Shown: in pieces, positions 9,268-17,627 of the stretch
Position numbering within the stretch: position 1 is the stretch's first letter
Layout of the letters: the number at the start of each line of letters is the position of its first letter
Assembly (NCBI RefSeq): GCF_000310145.2
Contig: NZ_AMXA01000020.1
Coordinates: 1 to 64,000 of the forward strand
DNA length: 64,000 nt
Source of the DNA: Thauera sp. 28
GTDB taxonomy: Bacteria > Pseudomonadota > Gammaproteobacteria > Burkholderiales > Rhodocyclaceae
Direction: 5' to 3'
Position numbers and translations under genes: made by a program
The notes under the pieces: generated by a model
Told to the model about the DNA's origin: nothing
Seen by the model: only the letters and a program-made list of their open reading frames with translations
Databases searched by the model: none

Positions 9268-10899
9268 TCAGCAGCGGAAGCGGCCGACGAGCTGGTTGAG
9301 GTCGCCTGCCAGTTGCTCCATGCGCTCCGCCAGCTGAGCCATCGAGGCCATCTCGGCCGTGGTGTCCTGCGCCATCGAGGTGATCCGCTCGACCTGCTGG
9401 GCGATCTCGGTTGCTGCGGCGCGCTGCTCGCGGGTGGCGAAAGCCACACCGCGGATCTTCTCCAGCGCCTCGCCGGCGCCGGACCTGATCTGATGCAGGG
9501 ACTCGGACGTCTCATCGACGAGCACCACGCCGCCCTCGACCTGTGCCGTCACCTCGGCCATGGCATCGACCGTGCCCTTGGTCTCGGTCTGGATGCCCTC
9601 GATGACCTGCTCGATCTGGACCGTCGCCGCGGCGGTGCGCTCAGCCAGGCCGCGCACCTCGTCGGCAACGACCGCAAAGCCGCGCCCCTGCTCGCCGGCC
9701 CTGGCGGCCTCGATCGCCGCGTTGAGGGCCAGGAGGTTGGTCTGCCCGGCGATCTCCTTGATCACGTTGGCGATCGATCCCACTTCGTCCGCACGCAGGA
9801 CCAGGTTCTGCAGCTTGCCTGCAGCCGCCCCGACCTTGGCAGCGATCGAGTTCATCTCCGTGACCACACGCTCGGCCCGCGCCGCGCCCTCATGGGCCAG
9901 CTCGGACGTCGCCGCCGAGTTCTCCTCGGCATGGCGGGCGCCATCCGAGATGTGCTCCACGCTCACCGTCATCTCCTCGACCGCGGCTGCGATGGCAGCG
10001 GTCGAGTCGGTCTGCACGGCCGACGCCTTGGACACCACCCGCGCGACCTCAGAGATGTCCCGCACGGTATCGGTCAGCCGCCCCGAACCCTGGCCGATTT
10101 CGCCCACCATGGCGCGCAACTGGCCAAGCATGGTCGACAGCGTACCAAGCAGGCTGTCTGCGCCCGCGCGATTGGCGACCCTGACATCGAGCTGACCCGC
10201 AGCGGCCTGGCGCATGACCTCGTTGGCATAGGCCGGCTCGCCGCCGAGCGCACGGACCACGCCCCTCACCACCCACCACGAGATCAGGCCGAGGACGACG
10301 AGCACCGCCAGCACGAAGATACCGAAGCCGGTCGCCGCGCCACGCATGGCGGTATCGATATCATCGACATACACGCCCGTACCGACGATCCAGTCCCACT
10401 CCGCGAACATCTTGACGTAGGACAGCTTGGGCTGGGGCGTCTCCGACCCCGGGCGCGGCCACAGGTAATCCACGAAACCGGCGCCATCGGCACGCGCCAC
10501 GCGCACGAACTCGCGGAACAGGTACTTGCCCTGCGGATCACGATTCGGAGACAGGTCCACCCCCTCGAGATCGGGGCGGATCGGGTGCATCAGCATCACC
10601 GGACCGCTGTCATTGACCCAGAAGTACTCGTTGCCTTGATAGCGCAGGCCGCGCAACGCCGCCTTGGCGGCCTCCTGCGCATTGGCCCGGCTCATTGCGC
10701 CGCTGCGCTCCAGGGCGTGGAAATGCGCAATCAGACCGTGGGCGACCTCGACCTGGCTCCTGACGTTGCGCTCATAGCCTTCGGTCATGTGGCGGTGCGC
10801 ATCACGCAATGCCACTGCAGTGAGCAATGCCAGGCCAGCCATCGCCACCACGACCAGCAGCGAGACACGCTGCACGACGGTCAATGATCCAAGGCGCAT
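9268..10899 (-). CDS. Methyl-accepting chemotaxis protein, single-Cache type
   Basis: A 543-residue inner-membrane chemoreceptor. An N-terminal membrane segment (about residues 9-31) is followed by a periplasmic sCache_2-like sensor (about 32-190, with [18 protein letters not shown] and [13 protein letters not shown]), a second membrane segment, HAMP, and a cytoplasmic signalling hairpin with the conserved tip [19 protein letters not shown]. Adaptation helices flank the tip. There is no C-terminal CheR-tethering pentapeptide. The ligand is unknown; this Cache type often binds small organic acids. A sigma-28-like promoter upstream suggests expression with the flagellar regulon. It is similar in architecture to the receptor at 15993. 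Confidence 0.93.
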
Positions 10900-10977: not shown

Positions 10978-11005
10978 CTATCGGCCAAATACACCTCCGA
11001 CTTTA
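10978..11005 (-). promoter_or_regulatory. Sigma-28 (FliA) promoter of the Cache chemoreceptor
   Basis: On the minus strand TAAA (11002..11005), 16 bases and GCCGATAG (10978..10985). The FliA consensus is TAAA-N15-GCCGATAA, so the -10 matches 7 of 8 and the spacer is one base long. It lies about 80 bases before the start codon. Confidence 0.65.
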
Positions 11006-11794: not shown

Positions 11795-13816
11795 ATGGGA
11801 CTGTTCTTGCGCAAACAAGCCGCCAATGCGGCAGGGGTGGTGACCTTGCAGGCATCCTCGGCGACGCTGGGGGCAGCGCTTGACGCCTTGCGCATCAAGC
11901 CCACATTCGTGGTCGCTTTCGTGTCGCCGCACGTCGACATCGACCGCAGCGCGGCCGAGGTGCGCAGGCGCTTTCCCGATGCGGCGCTGGCCATGTGCAC
12001 GACCGCAGGCGAGCTCTGCTCCGAACAGGGCCAGCTCTACTGCACGACCGGCGGAAGCTGGGATCGCATCGTCCTCCAGTGCTTCGACGCCTCACTGGTG
12101 GCCCGCGCCGAAGTGGTGGCGATCCCCCTAGGCAGCGAGGACTTGCGCCGCGGCTCGGTTGCCGTGCCGATGAAGGAGCGCGTGGCGCGACTGGCAAGGA
12201 GCATCGAGAACGCCGGCATCGCCCTCGACATCGATCACCGCGACACCTTCGCCTACGTGCTGTTCGACGGCCTGTCGGCATCCGAGTCGTTCTTCATGGA
12301 GGCCCTGTACGAGAGCGGCCGCTTCCCCTGTCTGTTCGTGGGCGGCTCCGCCGGCGGCACGCTCGACTTCAAGGTGTCCTGGCTGCACGACGGCAAGCGG
12401 CGCCTGGACAACCACGCCCTCGTCACTTTCGTCAGAACGGCGCCGGGCGTGCGTTTCGGCGTGTTCAAGAGCCAGAACTTCGAACCCACGGATGTCGTGT
12501 TCAACGTCTTGTCCGCCTCGCTGGAGCAACGCTACGTCAGCCAGGTGTTCGACCAGCAGGGCCGCATCGGCACCCTGGTCGACGCCTTGTGCGACCGACT
12601 CAAATGCGATCGCAGCTCGCTAGAGGCCAAGCTGGCCGAGTACTCCTTCGCCATTCGCGTCGGCAAGGAAATCTACGTGCGCTCAATCGCACGCATGGAC
12701 CTGGATAGCGGGCGCGTGCACTTCTACTGCGACGTCGCCCCGGGCGAGGAGCTGGTCATGGTCCGCCGCACCGGGCTGGCCGAACGCACACGGCAGGACT
12801 TCCAGCGCTTCCTGGAAGGCAAGCCGGGACTGCCGGTGGCCGGCATCCTCAACGACTGCATCCTGCGCAGGCTCTACAACGAGCGCGAGCTCGGCGACAT
12901 GGGCAAGGTCATGGAGGGCGTGCCACTCGCCGGCTTCTCCACCTTTGGCGAAATTCTGGGCTTGAATCTGAACCAGACCCTGACTGCCATCTTCTTCTTC
13001 CGCGTGCGCACCGGAGAAGGCTTCCGCGACGGCTTCGTGGACCAGTTCGTGGCCCACTACGGCGAGTTCAAGGCCTTTTTCCTGCGCCGCCAGGTCGCCA
13101 AGCTCGCGGGCCTGTCGCGTGTCGTGGTTCAGCAGATCGAGAGTTTCGAGGCCCAGCACTTCGACAGCTCGCTCGACGCCAGCGGGCTGGATGAATCGAT
13201 GGCGAGGGTGTTCACCGGACTCAACGATCTTGGGCGGGTGCTCCGGGAGGCGAACACGCTGCGCGAGCACACTGCGCGGGAACTGGATGGTTGTGCCGGC
13301 GACCTTTACGGGTCGATGGATGCGCTGTCCGCACACATCGTCGAGCAGGACGAGGTCGTCCATCGCGCCGGCAGTACGGTCGTCGAACTTGCCGCGCGTG
13401 CGGGCGAGGTCGCCGCCAGCGCGCGCGGCCTGGCCGAAGCCAGTGCCCGCATCAAGAGCGTTGCAGGCGTGATCCAGCAGATCTCCGACCAGACCAACCT
13501 GCTCGCGCTCAACGCCGCGATCGAGGCGGCACGGGCCGGAGAACAGGGGCGCGGGTTCGCCGTGGTCGCAGACGAGGTGCGCAAGCTCGCGGAGAAATCG
13601 CGTACCAGTGCGACCGAGATCGGTGGCGACATTTCCCGGCTCGCGGATGCAATCAGCAATGTGGCGCGCGAGATCGAAGGCCAATCGTCCGGCGTGGCCG
13701 ACCTCACCAAGCTGCTCGAGAGCATCGAGCAGTCGAGCCGCCGCACCGCGGACACGGCGGTGCACACCAAGGCGGTGGCCGATAGCCTGAGGGCGCTCAC
13801 CAAGGGCAGCGCCTAA
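11795..13816 (+). CDS. Soluble chemoreceptor with FIST sensor domains
   Basis: A 673-residue protein with no membrane segment. FIST_N (about residues 30-230) and FIST_C (about 235-400, ending [17 protein letters not shown]) form the sensor, followed by a helical linker and a methyl-accepting signalling domain with the tip [19 protein letters not shown] and [10 protein letters not shown] near residues 560-600. FIST domains are thought to bind small ligands, possibly amino acids. It is therefore a cytoplasmic chemoreceptor sensing an internal signal. The ATG at 11795 has a strong GAGGAG ribosome-binding site. No sigma-28 promoter is visible. The orphan gene at 14852 carries a similar FGEI...LLNQTL ending, hinting at a related sensing function. 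Confidence 0.9.
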
Positions 13817-14032: not shown

Positions 14033-14047
14033 TGGCATGATTGTTGC
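14033..14047 (+). promoter_or_regulatory. Sigma-54 (RpoN) promoter
   Basis: TGGCAT-GATTG-TTGC gives the invariant GG-N10-GC spacing and close agreement with TGGCAC-N5-TTGCA. Transcription would start near 14059, about 70 bases before the first gene of the pair at 14131 and 14852. An enhancer-binding regulator must be required, but none is encoded next to it. Confidence 0.75.
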
Positions 14048-14130
14048 CTGAGCGCTCTCCAGCGCACGTGGCGCAGCCGTCACGGCGGCGCACTTGATCA
14101 CTCGATCCGATGGCTGGAGACCCGCCGACA

Positions 14131-14850
14131 ATGAATAACGAGCGACACCTGTGGCAAACACTGCTGGATGTCGAGGCGCCGTGGACGGTTACCGACTGCA
14201 AGGAGAATGGTGGCCGTCGCCACGACATCTGGATCGGACTGGAAACCCCTCGCCCCTGGTTGGGCATCATACGCGCGCGGCCTGTGCCGGGTACGCGGAC
14301 ACTGTCCTGGCGGCACGCCAACTTCGGCGCCTGGCAGATCCATATCCACGTCCAGGCGCCAGGCACGGCCGACCTGTCGCGCCAACCGTGGGCCGGCGAA
14401 CCAGACCTGCCATTCACGCGCGCGCTCAACGAGCGGATCTTCACCTTTCTGCGCGAGGGATGCAGCCTGCAGAGCATCTGCACCCTGCTCGACCTGCCGA
14501 TCACCGAACTCTGGCGATTGCGCTATGCGATGGACAGCGGCCGCTGGGGCTTCGACCGCTCCCCGGCCAAGTGTATCGCAGCGCACGGCAGCGAAACTGA
14601 CGCAGGCGCGGCGGCGGACCCGGACGTGCCCGACGTGGCGGACCCAGTGTGGGTCGCGCTGCTGGAAGGCGGACGACAACTCGACATCCGCGTCCTCGGC
14701 CTGAAGCTGCTGCTGACACGGCTGCGCGCGCAGTTCGAGATGATCTCCGACGTCGAGGTGCGCACGCTCAAGTTGCAGGAACTGCACCGGTACTTCCTCA
14801 AGAACAAGCGCCTGCTCGCGCATGAACTCAGCCAGATCAGGAGCGAATGA
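14131..14850 (+). CDS. Hypothetical protein with ISL3-transposase-like N-terminal region
   Basis: I do not recognise this 239-residue protein. Its first half (PWTVTDC, WRHANFGAWQIHIHVQAPG, then a PWA...PFTRAL segment and a helix-turn-helix-like SLQSICTLLDLPITELWRL) resembles the layout of the N-terminal region of ISL3-family transposases. The zinc-binding cysteines and any DDE catalytic domain are missing. The C-terminal third is helical and charged. It may be a domesticated DNA-binding module. The start at 14131 (MNNERHLW) has GGAG 12 bases upstream; ATG 14110 is the alternative. It lies behind a sigma-54 promoter and ends one base before the next gene's GTG, so the two are coupled. Confidence 0.7.
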   Translation: MNNERHLWQTLLDVEAPWTVTDCKENGGRRHDIWIGLETPRPWLGIIRARPVPGTRTLSWRHANFGAWQIHIHVQAPGTADLSRQPWAGEPDLPFTRALNERIFTFLREGCSLQSICTLLDLPITELWRLRYAMDSGRWGFDRSPAKCIAAHGSETDAGAAADPDVPDVADPVWVALLEGGRQLDIRVLGLKLLLTRLRAQFEMISDVEVRTLKLQELHRYFLKNKRLLAHELSQIRSE

Positions 14851-14851
14851 C

Positions 14852-15853
14852 GTGGCTGGGACTCCTCTTGAGCAAAGCGCCTCCGCACACGGTTCGTTAC
14901 TCGGCCTTGTCGAGGCAGCACGGCGCATCGAACGTGGCGCCTTCCTGACCATTGCCGGCGACGAGGACTTGCTGCGCCAGCTGCCGCGCGGCAACTGGAT
15001 CGGCGGCACGATTCCGTACTTCATGGCGCAGGACGGCGGCGAGATGAGCCGCAATCGCGTATTCGTGAGCGAGATCGCACACGTCTCGCCAGTACCGCGG
15101 ATCCGCTTCCATGACGTGACCTCGCTCGACCGGATATGTGTGGAAGCCCCGGACAACGGCTACTCCATACTGATCATTCCGGCGTTCTCTGCGGTGCACT
15201 CGCATTACGCGCGCAACGCGCCGGGGTTCGACGACATGTTCGTAAAACCCCTCGTCGGCTGGGTATCGGGCTGCCACCTCGACGATATCGAACGCGCCAC
15301 CCCCATGGTGATCAACGGGCAAACGGGAGAGTTCGACTCCGAGCGCGCGGTGGTGATGCATGTCACTCTCCCGGACGACTGCTACGCCCGGGTGGAGATC
15401 ATCAATCTGTTGGCGCAAGGCCGGGGCGACGACATCCGCTTTCCGGAAACGGGCTTCTCGGCACGCGAATGCCTCGTCAATGGCGCTCCGTCGCTCCTTG
15501 CGGACTACCTCGAAGCACATGGCGGCGATCTGCGCCTGCCCTTGGTCGCCGACTATTGCGGGGCGATGGTCAACGTGTCCTTCAAAAGCATCGATGCCAG
15601 CACCAGGCGCGTCGATTTCTACGCCCCCGTATTCAAGGACACCACCTATCGCCTGGCCCGCCGGCTGCCGCCGACGCACTCGAGCGCAGAGGGCGGACAC
15701 GCGGCGTTCTCGTGCAACTGCATTCTCAACTACGTCCATGACGGCCTGGAGGGGCGCCGAACAGGCGCCTTCACCGGACCGATGACCTTCGGCGAGATCG
15801 CCTATCTGCTGCTCAACCAGACCTTGGTCTACCTCGTGATCGATCGCATGTGA
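14852..15853 (+). CDS. Conserved protein of unknown function with FIST_C-like ending
   Basis: A soluble protein of about 333 residues with no known catalytic motif that I can see. Distinctive stretches are LLRQLPRGNWIGGTIPYFM near the N-terminus and GPMTFGEIAYLLLNQTLVYLVID at the C-terminus; the latter resembles the end of FIST_C domains, including that of the chemoreceptor at 11795. I suspect a stand-alone FIST-related sensor; from memory this family may be catalogued as DUF6976, which I cannot verify. The GTG at 14852 has AGGAG eight bases upstream; an ATG at 14822 would overlap the preceding gene. It is cotranscribed with the 14131 gene from a sigma-54 promoter. Confidence 0.75.
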   Translation: MAGTPLEQSASAHGSLLGLVEAARRIERGAFLTIAGDEDLLRQLPRGNWIGGTIPYFMAQDGGEMSRNRVFVSEIAHVSPVPRIRFHDVTSLDRICVEAPDNGYSILIIPAFSAVHSHYARNAPGFDDMFVKPLVGWVSGCHLDDIERATPMVINGQTGEFDSERAVVMHVTLPDDCYARVEIINLLAQGRGDDIRFPETGFSARECLVNGAPSLLADYLEAHGGDLRLPLVADYCGAMVNVSFKSIDASTRRVDFYAPVFKDTTYRLARRLPPTHSSAEGGHAAFSCNCILNYVHDGLEGRRTGAFTGPMTFGEIAYLLLNQTLVYLVIDRM

Positions 15854-15929: not shown

Positions 15930-15956
15930 TAAAGTCTCCAGGCTTATAGCCGATAC
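15930..15956 (+). promoter_or_regulatory. Sigma-28 (FliA) promoter
   Basis: TAAA (15930..15933), exactly 15 bases, and GCCGATAC (15949..15956) match the flagellar sigma consensus TAAA-N15-GCCGATAA at all but the last base. It stands about 40 bases before the chemoreceptor start codon at 15993. Confidence 0.85.
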
Positions 15957-15992: not shown

Positions 15993-17627
15993 ATGCTCGA
16001 CAACCTGAAGTTCAGAACCAAGATCATCCTGCTGATCGCCGCCACCTTCCTGGGCCTGGCTACCGTCATGGTCCTGGATGCGATCCAGCTCAAGGCCGAG
16101 CTCACCGAAACACGCAAGCTCCAGGTCCGCTCCATCGTCGAGAGCGCCGTGCAGGTCTCGGCTGCCTTTCACGCCCGCAGTGGCGAGCTGGGCACTCCGG
16201 AAGCCCAGTCGAGGGCCATCCAGGCCATTCAGGCAATGCGCTACGGCGGCGACGACGGCAAGACCGAATACCTCTACATCTACGACCTGTCGGCGACGAC
16301 GGTGATGCACCCCTTCCGCCCGGAGTGGAAGGGGCGCGATGTGAGCAACGAGGTCCGTGACGGCAAGGGGCGTTACACGATCAAGGACGTGGTCGGCACA
16401 GCCAGCCGCAACGGCTCCGGCTACGTCGATACCGCCTTCCCCCGTCCGGGCAGCACCGACCCGGTCGACAAGCTGCAGTACGTCGCCACCTTCGCGCCCT
16501 GGGGCTGGGTCATCGGTACCGGGGTGTACATGGATGACGTCGAGACCCAGTTCTGGAACAGCGTGCTGGTCGATATGCTTGTCAGCCTGGTGATCATGCT
16601 GGTCGTGGTGGCGCTCGGTGTTCAGATCGGCCGCTCGGTGCTGCGCCAGATCGGCGGCGAGCCGACCGAAGCAATGCGCCTGATGGACCTCGCCGCCTCG
16701 GGAGACCTCACCGTTGCCATTCCCAACGCGCAACGCGGAAGTCTGCTCTCCGAGCTGTCGCGCATGCTGAGCGCGATTCGCCAGATGGTGGGCGAGATCT
16801 CGGCAAAGTCCGGCGTCGTGCGGCACACCGCCGAGAACATCTCGACCTCGTCGGGCCAGGTCGCCCAAGCCTCGCTCCGCCAGTCCGACTCCACGGCAGC
16901 CATGGCTGCCGCGATCGAGGAACTGACCGTCTCCATCAACCACATCTCCGACCTTGCCCGCGACACTGAGCAGTACTCCTCTTCGGCAGCGCAGCTGGCC
17001 CAGGGCGGCGAGGCGCAGGTTGCCGAGGCGGCGCGCGAGATGACCGTGATCTCCGAACAGACCTCCGCCGCTGCGGGAATGATCCGCTCGCTCGAGACGC
17101 GTGCCAACGAGATCTCCAAGATCACCGAGGTAATCAAGGAAATCGCAGCACAGACCAACCTGCTTGCCCTCAACGCTGCCATCGAGGCCGCTCGCGCAGG
17201 CGAGCAAGGCCGCGGCTTCGCGGTGGTCGCGGACGAAGTCCGCAAGCTTGCCGAACGGACCTCGTCCGCGACCGAAGAGATCAGTGCGATGACGGGCGCC
17301 ATCCAGAGCGACACGGGCAGCGCAGTCGAATCCATGGACAAGGCACTGCCCCAGGTCGAGCGCGGCGTGGAGCTTGCCCGCGAGGCCGAACAGTCGCTGC
17401 GCAAGATCCGCGAAGGCGCGCACACGACGCTCGACCGCATCCGCGAGGTGGCGCTTGCCACCCGGGAACAAAGCGCCGCCAGCACGGCCATCGCGCAGCA
17501 GGTCGAGAGCATTGCCCAGATGGTGGAAGAAACCAGCGCATCCACCGAACAGACCGCCTCATCGGCAACGTCCCTGGACACCATCGCCAGAGAACTCGGA
17601 GAGCTGGTGTCACGCTTCCGTCACTGA
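15993..17627 (+). CDS. Methyl-accepting chemotaxis protein, single-Cache type
   Basis: A 544-residue chemoreceptor with the same architecture as the one at 9268. A membrane segment at about residues 9-30 is followed by a periplasmic sCache_2-like sensor ([31 protein letters not shown]), a second membrane segment ([17 protein letters not shown]), HAMP, and the signalling hairpin with [19 protein letters not shown]. There is no CheR pentapeptide; the protein ends LVSRFRH. An almost perfect sigma-28 promoter lies upstream, so expression is coupled to motility. The sensor is clearly different from that of the other receptor, so the ligand probably differs. This looks like a paralogous pair flanking the FIST chemoreceptor. 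Confidence 0.94.

Follow-up and report, generated by a model that had tools for sequence, protein, structure and literature searches.

In a window of 64,000 nucleotides from Thauera sp. 28 (the whole stretch of DNA analysed here) we find two adjoining genes, A and B, that form a conserved pair. Gene B encodes a DUF6976 protein that, judged from profile alignments and its structure model, appears to be a distant relative of the FIST superfamily with a FIST-like fold. Gene A joins an ISL3-like head to a C-terminal helical module, and it is the module that accompanies DUF6976 almost throughout. For DUF6976, a family so far uncharacterised, this provides a probable fold, a partner that hardly varies and a role that is open to testing.

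What might such a pair do? We give about an even chance to a two-protein, ligand-responsive cytoplasmic regulator, in which B is a FIST-like sensor and A contributes a docking module and an ISL3-derived head, both encoded in a sigma-54 operon. Homologies, pairing, coupling and promoter enrichment are what the sequence contributes to this reading; the FIST-like fold of B comes from the model. Gene B would sense a small-molecule ligand in the cytoplasm, the helical module of A would dock on B, and the head, descended from an ISL3 transposase, would bind DNA in this genome. Ligand on B would alter the seating of A on DNA and thereby switch target genes, either its own or distant ones. The operon is presumably transcribed as one message from the sigma-54 promoter. 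Coordinates are collected in Table 1.

Table 1. Positions of the gene pair, its parts and the neighbouring chemoreceptor, counted from the first letter of the window.
Feature	Position	Strand	Remarks
FIST-FIST_C chemoreceptor (neighbour)	11795..13816	+	outside the conserved unit; possible functional relative
Sigma-54-like promoter TGGCATGATTGTTGCC, -24/-12	14033..14048	+	exact core match; similar sites upstream in related loci
Gene A	14131..14850	+	239 aa; ISL3-like head and C-terminal helical module; alternative in-frame ATG at 14110
ISL3-transposase-like N-terminal part of gene A	14131..14550	+	zinc-ribbon remnant without cysteines; hhalign 91.8
Helix-turn-helix-like helices of gene A, residues 97-135	14419..14535	+	three helices in the model
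C-terminal helical module of gene A, residues 167-239 (last 73)	14629..14847	+	four helices in the model; near-constant partner of DUF6976
AGGAG (14839-14843, within the last codons of gene A), stop TGA of A and the single base ahead of the GTG of B	14839..14851	+	predicted translational coupling
Gene B	14852..15853	+	333 aa, GTG start; DUF6976, FIST-like
FIST_C-like C-terminal part of gene B	15536..15850	+	profile alignments; Pfam FIST_C in few members
C290 of gene B	15719..15721	+	invariant; aligned to FBXO22 C326; 80/80 loci (best of at least 550; 79 by pattern, L136 by eye)
E315 of gene B, GE(I/V) motif	15794..15796	+	aligned to FBXO22 E362; 80/80 loci (best of at least 550; 73 by pattern, 7 inspected)

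Two coupled genes had been predicted here, and the analysis confirms their coordinates, with a single base between the stop of A and the start of B. Across relatives the gap has a median of 6.5 bases and lies between -30 and +60 in 75 of 76 loci, a count in which starts of gene B close to the stop of A were given slight preference. Among 150 genomes of the same family, gene B is present in 24 and gene A, by profile search, in 23, each time adjoining gene B; the single gene B that stands by itself is truncated by a contig end. Beyond the family, we collected at least 550 confirmed DUF6976 relatives among 589 candidate stretches and studied the best 80, a sample that therefore leans towards close relatives. 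The gene A profile matches directly upstream of gene B in 77 of these 80 loci, in one of them (L134) through the C-terminal module alone, and two of the three remaining loci still carry that module. The pair is thus conserved, a point that the original prediction had proposed to check. The distance matrices of the two genes, compared over 75 loci, are correlated (r 0.84; permutation maximum 0.13, n=999); shared genome descent contributes to this figure. As judged from these sequences, the two genes have diverged in step while their frames stayed open.

For alignments A3 and A4 the sequences were clustered at 80 percent identity and one was taken from each cluster (50 of 77 and 45 of 80, respectively), plus that of the window; A3 further omits five repeated, partial or long sequences (L101, L134, L143, L147 and L149).

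Gene A as a whole matched nothing in Pfam, NCBIfam or PHROGs at E up to 10. Its structure model is good (pLDDT 89.7), and a whole-fold search of the PDB and viral libraries returned nothing below E 0.1. A profile search of the PDB returned, at E 7e-8, a 'cap repeat' chain of which no stretch passes alone and which we judged compositional, as well as one further hit at E 1. The descent of the N-terminal part becomes visible in direct profile comparison: residues 1-140 align with a profile of eight ISL3 sequences along about 120 residues, with hhalign probability 91.8 and P 7e-7. Matched singly, two of the eight transposases are reached by the head profile (38 bits for L155, from the same genus, and 32 bits) and the other six are missed. 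Zn_ribbon_ISL3 is detected in 3 of 22 gene A members (best E 0.031) and HTH_Tnp_ISL3 in 1 of 22 (E 0.011). CxxC motifs are left in 4 of 76 heads; L147 and L148 retain both CPRC and CGC, which supports the zinc-ribbon descent of the head. No DDE family matched gene A or 21 relatives at E up to 10. The prediction of an ISL3-related N-terminus devoid of zinc cysteines and of a DDE domain thus holds. One ISL3-like open frame of 410 aa (L166) itself has no zinc cysteines. The helix-turn-helix-like helices weakly resemble the DNA-binding domain of Hin recombinase (1jj8; Foldseek rmsd 1.3 over 35 columns, E 2.7, probability 0.47), and this stretch is well conserved, reading ELWKFK.ALD.G in one alignment and DLWKFK..LD.G in another. 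It would seem that the DNA-binding head of a transposase has been reused next to a sensor.

Which part of gene A is the constant one? The original prediction had cast gene A as a DNA-binding module; here it has to be corrected, since the constant part is formed by the C-terminal helices and some relatives do without the ISL3 head. Among the best 80 of at least 550 loci, the module is found in 79 and the head profile in 76, and one locus (L146) has neither. No head is detectable in L134, L141, L152, L069, L070, L073, L249 and L251, and L071 has at best a trace (E 0.19). The module makes up the whole partner gene, of about 60-130 aa, in L134, L141, L152, L069 and L073 and on Pseudosulfitobacter and Sphaerotilus plasmids. 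Usually single, it is doubled in L101, L143 and plasmid L250, present in four copies in L147, L148 and L071, and in five in L070. We conclude that the module, and not the ISL3 head, is the near-constant partner of DUF6976; its persistence without a head and its repetition up to five times are as expected for a contact to B. Among 339 class genomes the module matches in six, with at most 17 candidates scored per genome, so that lone copies may be missed; five of these matches adjoin DUF6976, and the remaining one (with a stop, at E 0.009) is probably fortuitous. In L134, the module-only partner opens with a stretch (LL.I..PWKV) like the beginning of the ISL3 head, at profile E 2.4; it may be what a deletion of the head left behind. 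The head-less relatives imply that DNA may be dispensable for the core function: the core act would belong to B and the module, with DNA binding as an added output.

Upstream of the pair, the site at 14033-14047 matches TGGCAYGNNNNTTGC, which we take to be the sigma-54 consensus, exactly. The window holds two exact matches to it and five with at most one mismatch, against 4.2 expected; any single site is thus at chance level, and the evidence lies in conservation. In 40 of 76 loci the 170 bases preceding gene A contain a site that scores at least 10 of 12, compared with 58 of 3040 random 200-mers and none of 76 on the opposite strand (one of the 77 loci has no upstream DNA). As the random 200-mers were drawn from the loci themselves and are mostly coding DNA, a second comparison uses upstreams: less redundant upstreams of gene A carry such sites in 20 of 43 cases, those of other genes in 23 of 234 (p 8e-8). 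The predicted sigma-54-like site is borne out by this enrichment. The sites come from many genera and are generally found 50-100 bases ahead of gene A, the -24 element reading TAGCAC or TTGCAC in some; at the threshold of 10 of 12 they are absent from 36 of the 76 loci, Methyloversatilis included. The genome encodes rpoN, and sigma-54 activators adjoin the pair in 3 of 79 immediate neighbours. Sigma-28-like sites of at least 10 of 12 are seen upstream of gene A in 2 of 76 loci, compared with 19 of 1520 random stretches, again taken from these loci. The word TTTGCAGC at first looked enriched, a signal that grew weaker in comparison with upstreams of other genes: 8 of the 43 contain it, and so do 12 of the 234 controls (p 0.005, uncorrected for the many words tried), at scattered positions. 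It was rejected as an operator, and no conserved operator was found upstream of gene A.

Three chemoreceptors surround the pair in the window. The original prediction had pointed to flanking chemoreceptors; they are present here, but the arrangement is local, as a chemoreceptor signature appears in the flanks (up to 10 kb per side) of only 4 of the 80 loci, the best of at least 550. The chemoreceptors at 15993 and at 10899 (minus strand) have sigma-28-like sites of 11 of 12 upstream (15930-15956 and 10978-11005), unlike the pair. Fourteen FIST chemoreceptor genes were scanned, and at least 10 of 12 positions upstream are sigma-28-like in five and sigma-54-like in one; that of the window scores 9 for sigma-28 and 8 for sigma-54.

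Across genomes, relatives of the FIST chemoreceptor at 38 percent identity or more occur in 19 of the 150 family genomes. These 19, of chemoreceptor length, were counted from 26 genomes with hits (E 1e-20), the other seven having stand-alone FIST proteins of 30-33 percent identity that were dropped. The chemoreceptor accompanies the pair in 11 of 24 genomes, compared with 8 of 126 genomes that have no pair (p 6e-6); by genus, it is found in 8 of the 16 that have the pair and in 4 of the 52 that do not (p 5e-4). In the 44 genomes of at least 3.5 Mb within an 81-genome subset, it is found in 6 of 9 with the pair and in 3 of 35 without it (p 8e-4). Shared ancestry is only partly removed from these comparisons, which therefore lend no more than indirect support to a possible common ligand of the pair and the FIST chemoreceptor. 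Strong cytochrome D1 matches (E below 1e-100), our proxy for NO and denitrification, showed no association with the pair in the 150 family genomes (18 of 24 with it, 77 of 126 without; p 0.25).

Beyond the pair itself, no conserved neighbour was found: the next cluster reaches 6 of 21 loci, and in the best 80 of at least 550 no other cluster exceeds 16, its distances being scattered, where the pair itself counts 66 and 60. Seventy-nine immediate neighbours (88 before a size limit, 86 under 900 aa, minus 7 near-duplicates) fall into 96 Pfam families, the commonest found in four members. In some lineages the neighbours presumably are PQQ-synthesis, aldehyde dehydrogenase or sulfite-reductase genes, and most of the betaproteobacterial loci L103, L109, L113, L116, L118, L119, L122, L150 and L153 seem to hold the pair among PQQ-synthesis and other metabolic genes. 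Such neighbours look lineage-bound, and we therefore draw no function from them. L150 and L153, recorded as Acidovorax sp. 210-6 and Dechloromonas agitata, have identical match coordinates at the locus, which suggests a mislabelled genome.

Could the output be a protein contact instead of DNA binding? Gene A would then be an adaptor that couples a DUF6976 sensor to, for example, chemoreceptor arrays or cyclic-di-GMP enzymes, the ISL3 head having become protein-binding. The near-complete loss of CxxC from the heads, the several relatives that keep the module without a head, an Ideonella dechloratans pair that is followed by an EAL protein, and the co-occurrence with FIST chemoreceptors would all suit this explanation, which we retain as an unlikely one, since DNA binding would be an added output. 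It sits poorly with the conservation of the helix-turn-helix stretch and with a neighbourhood of mixed families, in which no EAL, GGDEF or chemoreceptor family stands among the 25 listed of 96 and chemoreceptor signatures are as rare in the flanks as given above.

For a ligand-responsive regulator, the nature of gene B is central. It matches Pfam DUF6976 (PF22396) at E 7e-135, scoring 449 bits (cut-off 27) over profile positions 4-320 of 321; we found no mention of this family in the literature searched. Gene B had been predicted to end like FIST_C. Profile alignment and fold search uphold that likeness; it is not a matter of FIST_C alone, and the whole protein is already catalogued as DUF6976. 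The alignments indicate that the ending TFGEI...LNQTL, which it has in common with the FIST chemoreceptor, is homology. Directly, gene B matched neither the Pfam FIST and FIST_C models at E up to 10 nor the NosP model NF041558 of NCBIfam, and Pfam FIST_C reaches 2 of 21 DUF6976 members (best E 0.0051). Aligned by hhalign, DUF6976 meets FIST chemoreceptors at probability 87 (P 3.6e-6) and other FIST proteins at 42 (P 2.6e-4); a somewhat altered set of the latter gave 25 (P 8e-4), and mismatched controls gave about 0.1.

The structure model of gene B (mean pLDDT 91.9, pTM 0.90) supplies the second line of evidence. In a Foldseek search of the PDB, ranks 1-3 are chains of human FBXO22, with probabilities of 0.97, 0.92 and 0.91, E 0.006-0.009 and TM about 0.3; a fourth FBXO22 chain at rank 5 has a probability of 0.51 and TM 0.38-0.39. 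Taken together the FBXO22 hits span E 0.006-0.10 and TM 0.28-0.39, which is low, and among the 50 hits listed of 453 no other match exceeds a probability of 0.16. The model thus did not refute the structural similarity to FIST that the original prediction had put up for checking, at a TM of only 0.3-0.4. A bacterial FIST profile searched against the PDB recovers FBXO22 chains as the sole chains. The same library returned no FIST chain to a DUF6976 profile, which missed FBXO22, nor to phmmer with the FIST chemoreceptor of the window, and the DUF6976-FIST link accordingly depends on fold and on other FIST proteins. Weak reach of Pfam FIST_C, the miss in PDB sequence searches and low TM place gene B as a distant FIST relative and not as a member of Pfam FIST.

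Might gene B be an enzyme whose fold is akin to those of FIST proteins, chorismatases or cyanuric acid hydrolases, with gene A controlling or scaffolding it? Many polar residues of gene B are invariant: besides the Cys-Glu pair, listed as C289 and E314 in alignment numbering (protein numbering minus one; C290 and E315), these are H115, H141, N184 and N240. The FIST fold of FBXO22 is, moreover, described as similar overall to those two enzyme classes in PMC11185555. We consider an enzyme improbable, given that no gene of a substrate pathway was seen travelling widely with the pair and that neither class is among the 50 structural hits listed of 453, which FBXO22 leads.

Returning to B as a sensor within a two-protein regulator, the invariant Cys and Glu offer a candidate ligand site. 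The bacterial FIST profile places its own invariant Cys and GE on C326 and E362 of FBXO22 (positions counted from the printed alignment), C290 and E315 of DUF6976 fall in the same columns of the bacterial FIST alignment as the FBXO22 pair, and Cys and GE are kept in 18/18 FIST chemoreceptors and 23/23 other FIST proteins. In FBXO22, C326 reacts with aldehyde degraders, and E362A ablated degrader-driven NSD2 ubiquitination, according to PMC13316043; Cys326 adducts are likewise described in PMC11208438, and an obvious ligand pocket is said to be absent from the FIST domain in PMC11185555. The Cys and Glu through which aldehyde degraders hijack FBXO22 therefore coincide with the residues that never vary in the bacterial FIST sets studied, a link for which we found no statement in the literature searched (mostly papers outside subscription). 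By analogy, bacterial FIST domains may use this Cys as FBXO22 does with aldehydes, and the ligand site of gene B probably includes Cys290 and Glu315. A wider proposal, to which we attach little confidence, is that FIST sensors from bacteria to FBXO22 share an ancient Cys-Glu site forming reversible covalent adducts with electrophilic metabolites such as aldehydes, the DUF6976 pair being a new class of covalent-ligand regulator that brings an ISL3 head, through a repeatable docking module, to gene control. As the Cys-Glu pair is common to FBXO22 and bacterial FIST proteins, the natural ligand chemistry of FIST domains can be tested in simple bacterial proteins.

The pair is patchily distributed. 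Gene B scores above the cut-off in 6 of 369 class genomes and 3 of 398 phylum genomes (the genome of the window counted in both), and the three other same-genus genomes of the family sample do not have the pair. Gene B is found on 3 of 72,556 plasmids: one copy, on the alphaproteobacterial Pseudosulfitobacter plasmid L249, has a module-only partner and adjoins a ccdAB toxin-antitoxin pair, and another has an integrase gene upstream. In L233, L236 and L237 (G674), DUF6976 is split across frames, one piece with a stop, and looks like a decayed copy; in L026 (G143) a short second piece of the DUF6976 C-terminus, with a stop (E 9e-4), lies just downstream of an intact gene as a possible partial duplication. 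A reading of the pair as nothing more than an accessory or mobile module, such as plasmid or toxin-antitoxin-like cargo with a dead ISL3 remnant, would suit these plasmid copies and the patchy occurrence (24 of 150 in the family), but it is very hard to credit with no match in the phage records searched, two genes that apparently co-diverged as open frames and a head profile in most of the best 80 loci.

How does a two-protein regulator of this kind compare with known systems? FIST proteins (PF08495 FIST N, PF10442 FIST_C) resemble gene B in a C-terminal invariant Cys and GE and in an N-x-T-like end. The FIST chemoreceptor next to the pair has the FIST_C signature and co-occurs with it across genomes; unlike gene B, it is fused to a chemoreceptor signalling domain, and it scores 128 on the NosP model NF041558 against a cut-off of 450. 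NosP, as is proposed for gene B, is a stand-alone sensor encoded beside its partner, and is described as a separate FIST sensor acting on a histidine kinase in PMC12570481; it thus provides a precedent for the A/B pair. Heme binding and NO sensing have been reported for NosP-type FIST proteins in PMC12570481 and PMC8846402. Gene B differs from FIST and NosP proteins in passing the DUF6976 model only and in having a partner other than a histidine kinase. FBXO22, a human F-box protein with a FIST domain, leads the Foldseek hits and lays its C326 and E362 on C290 and E315, at an identity of 7-9 percent and TM 0.3-0.4; its role is in protein degradation, for which no parallel is known in gene B. 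The ISL3 transposases (IS204/IS1001/IS1096/IS1165), finally, align with gene A over the N-terminal zinc-ribbon region and the helix-turn-helix, whereas most gene A heads have lost the zinc cysteines, and gene A has no DDE domain and ends in a different C-terminal module.
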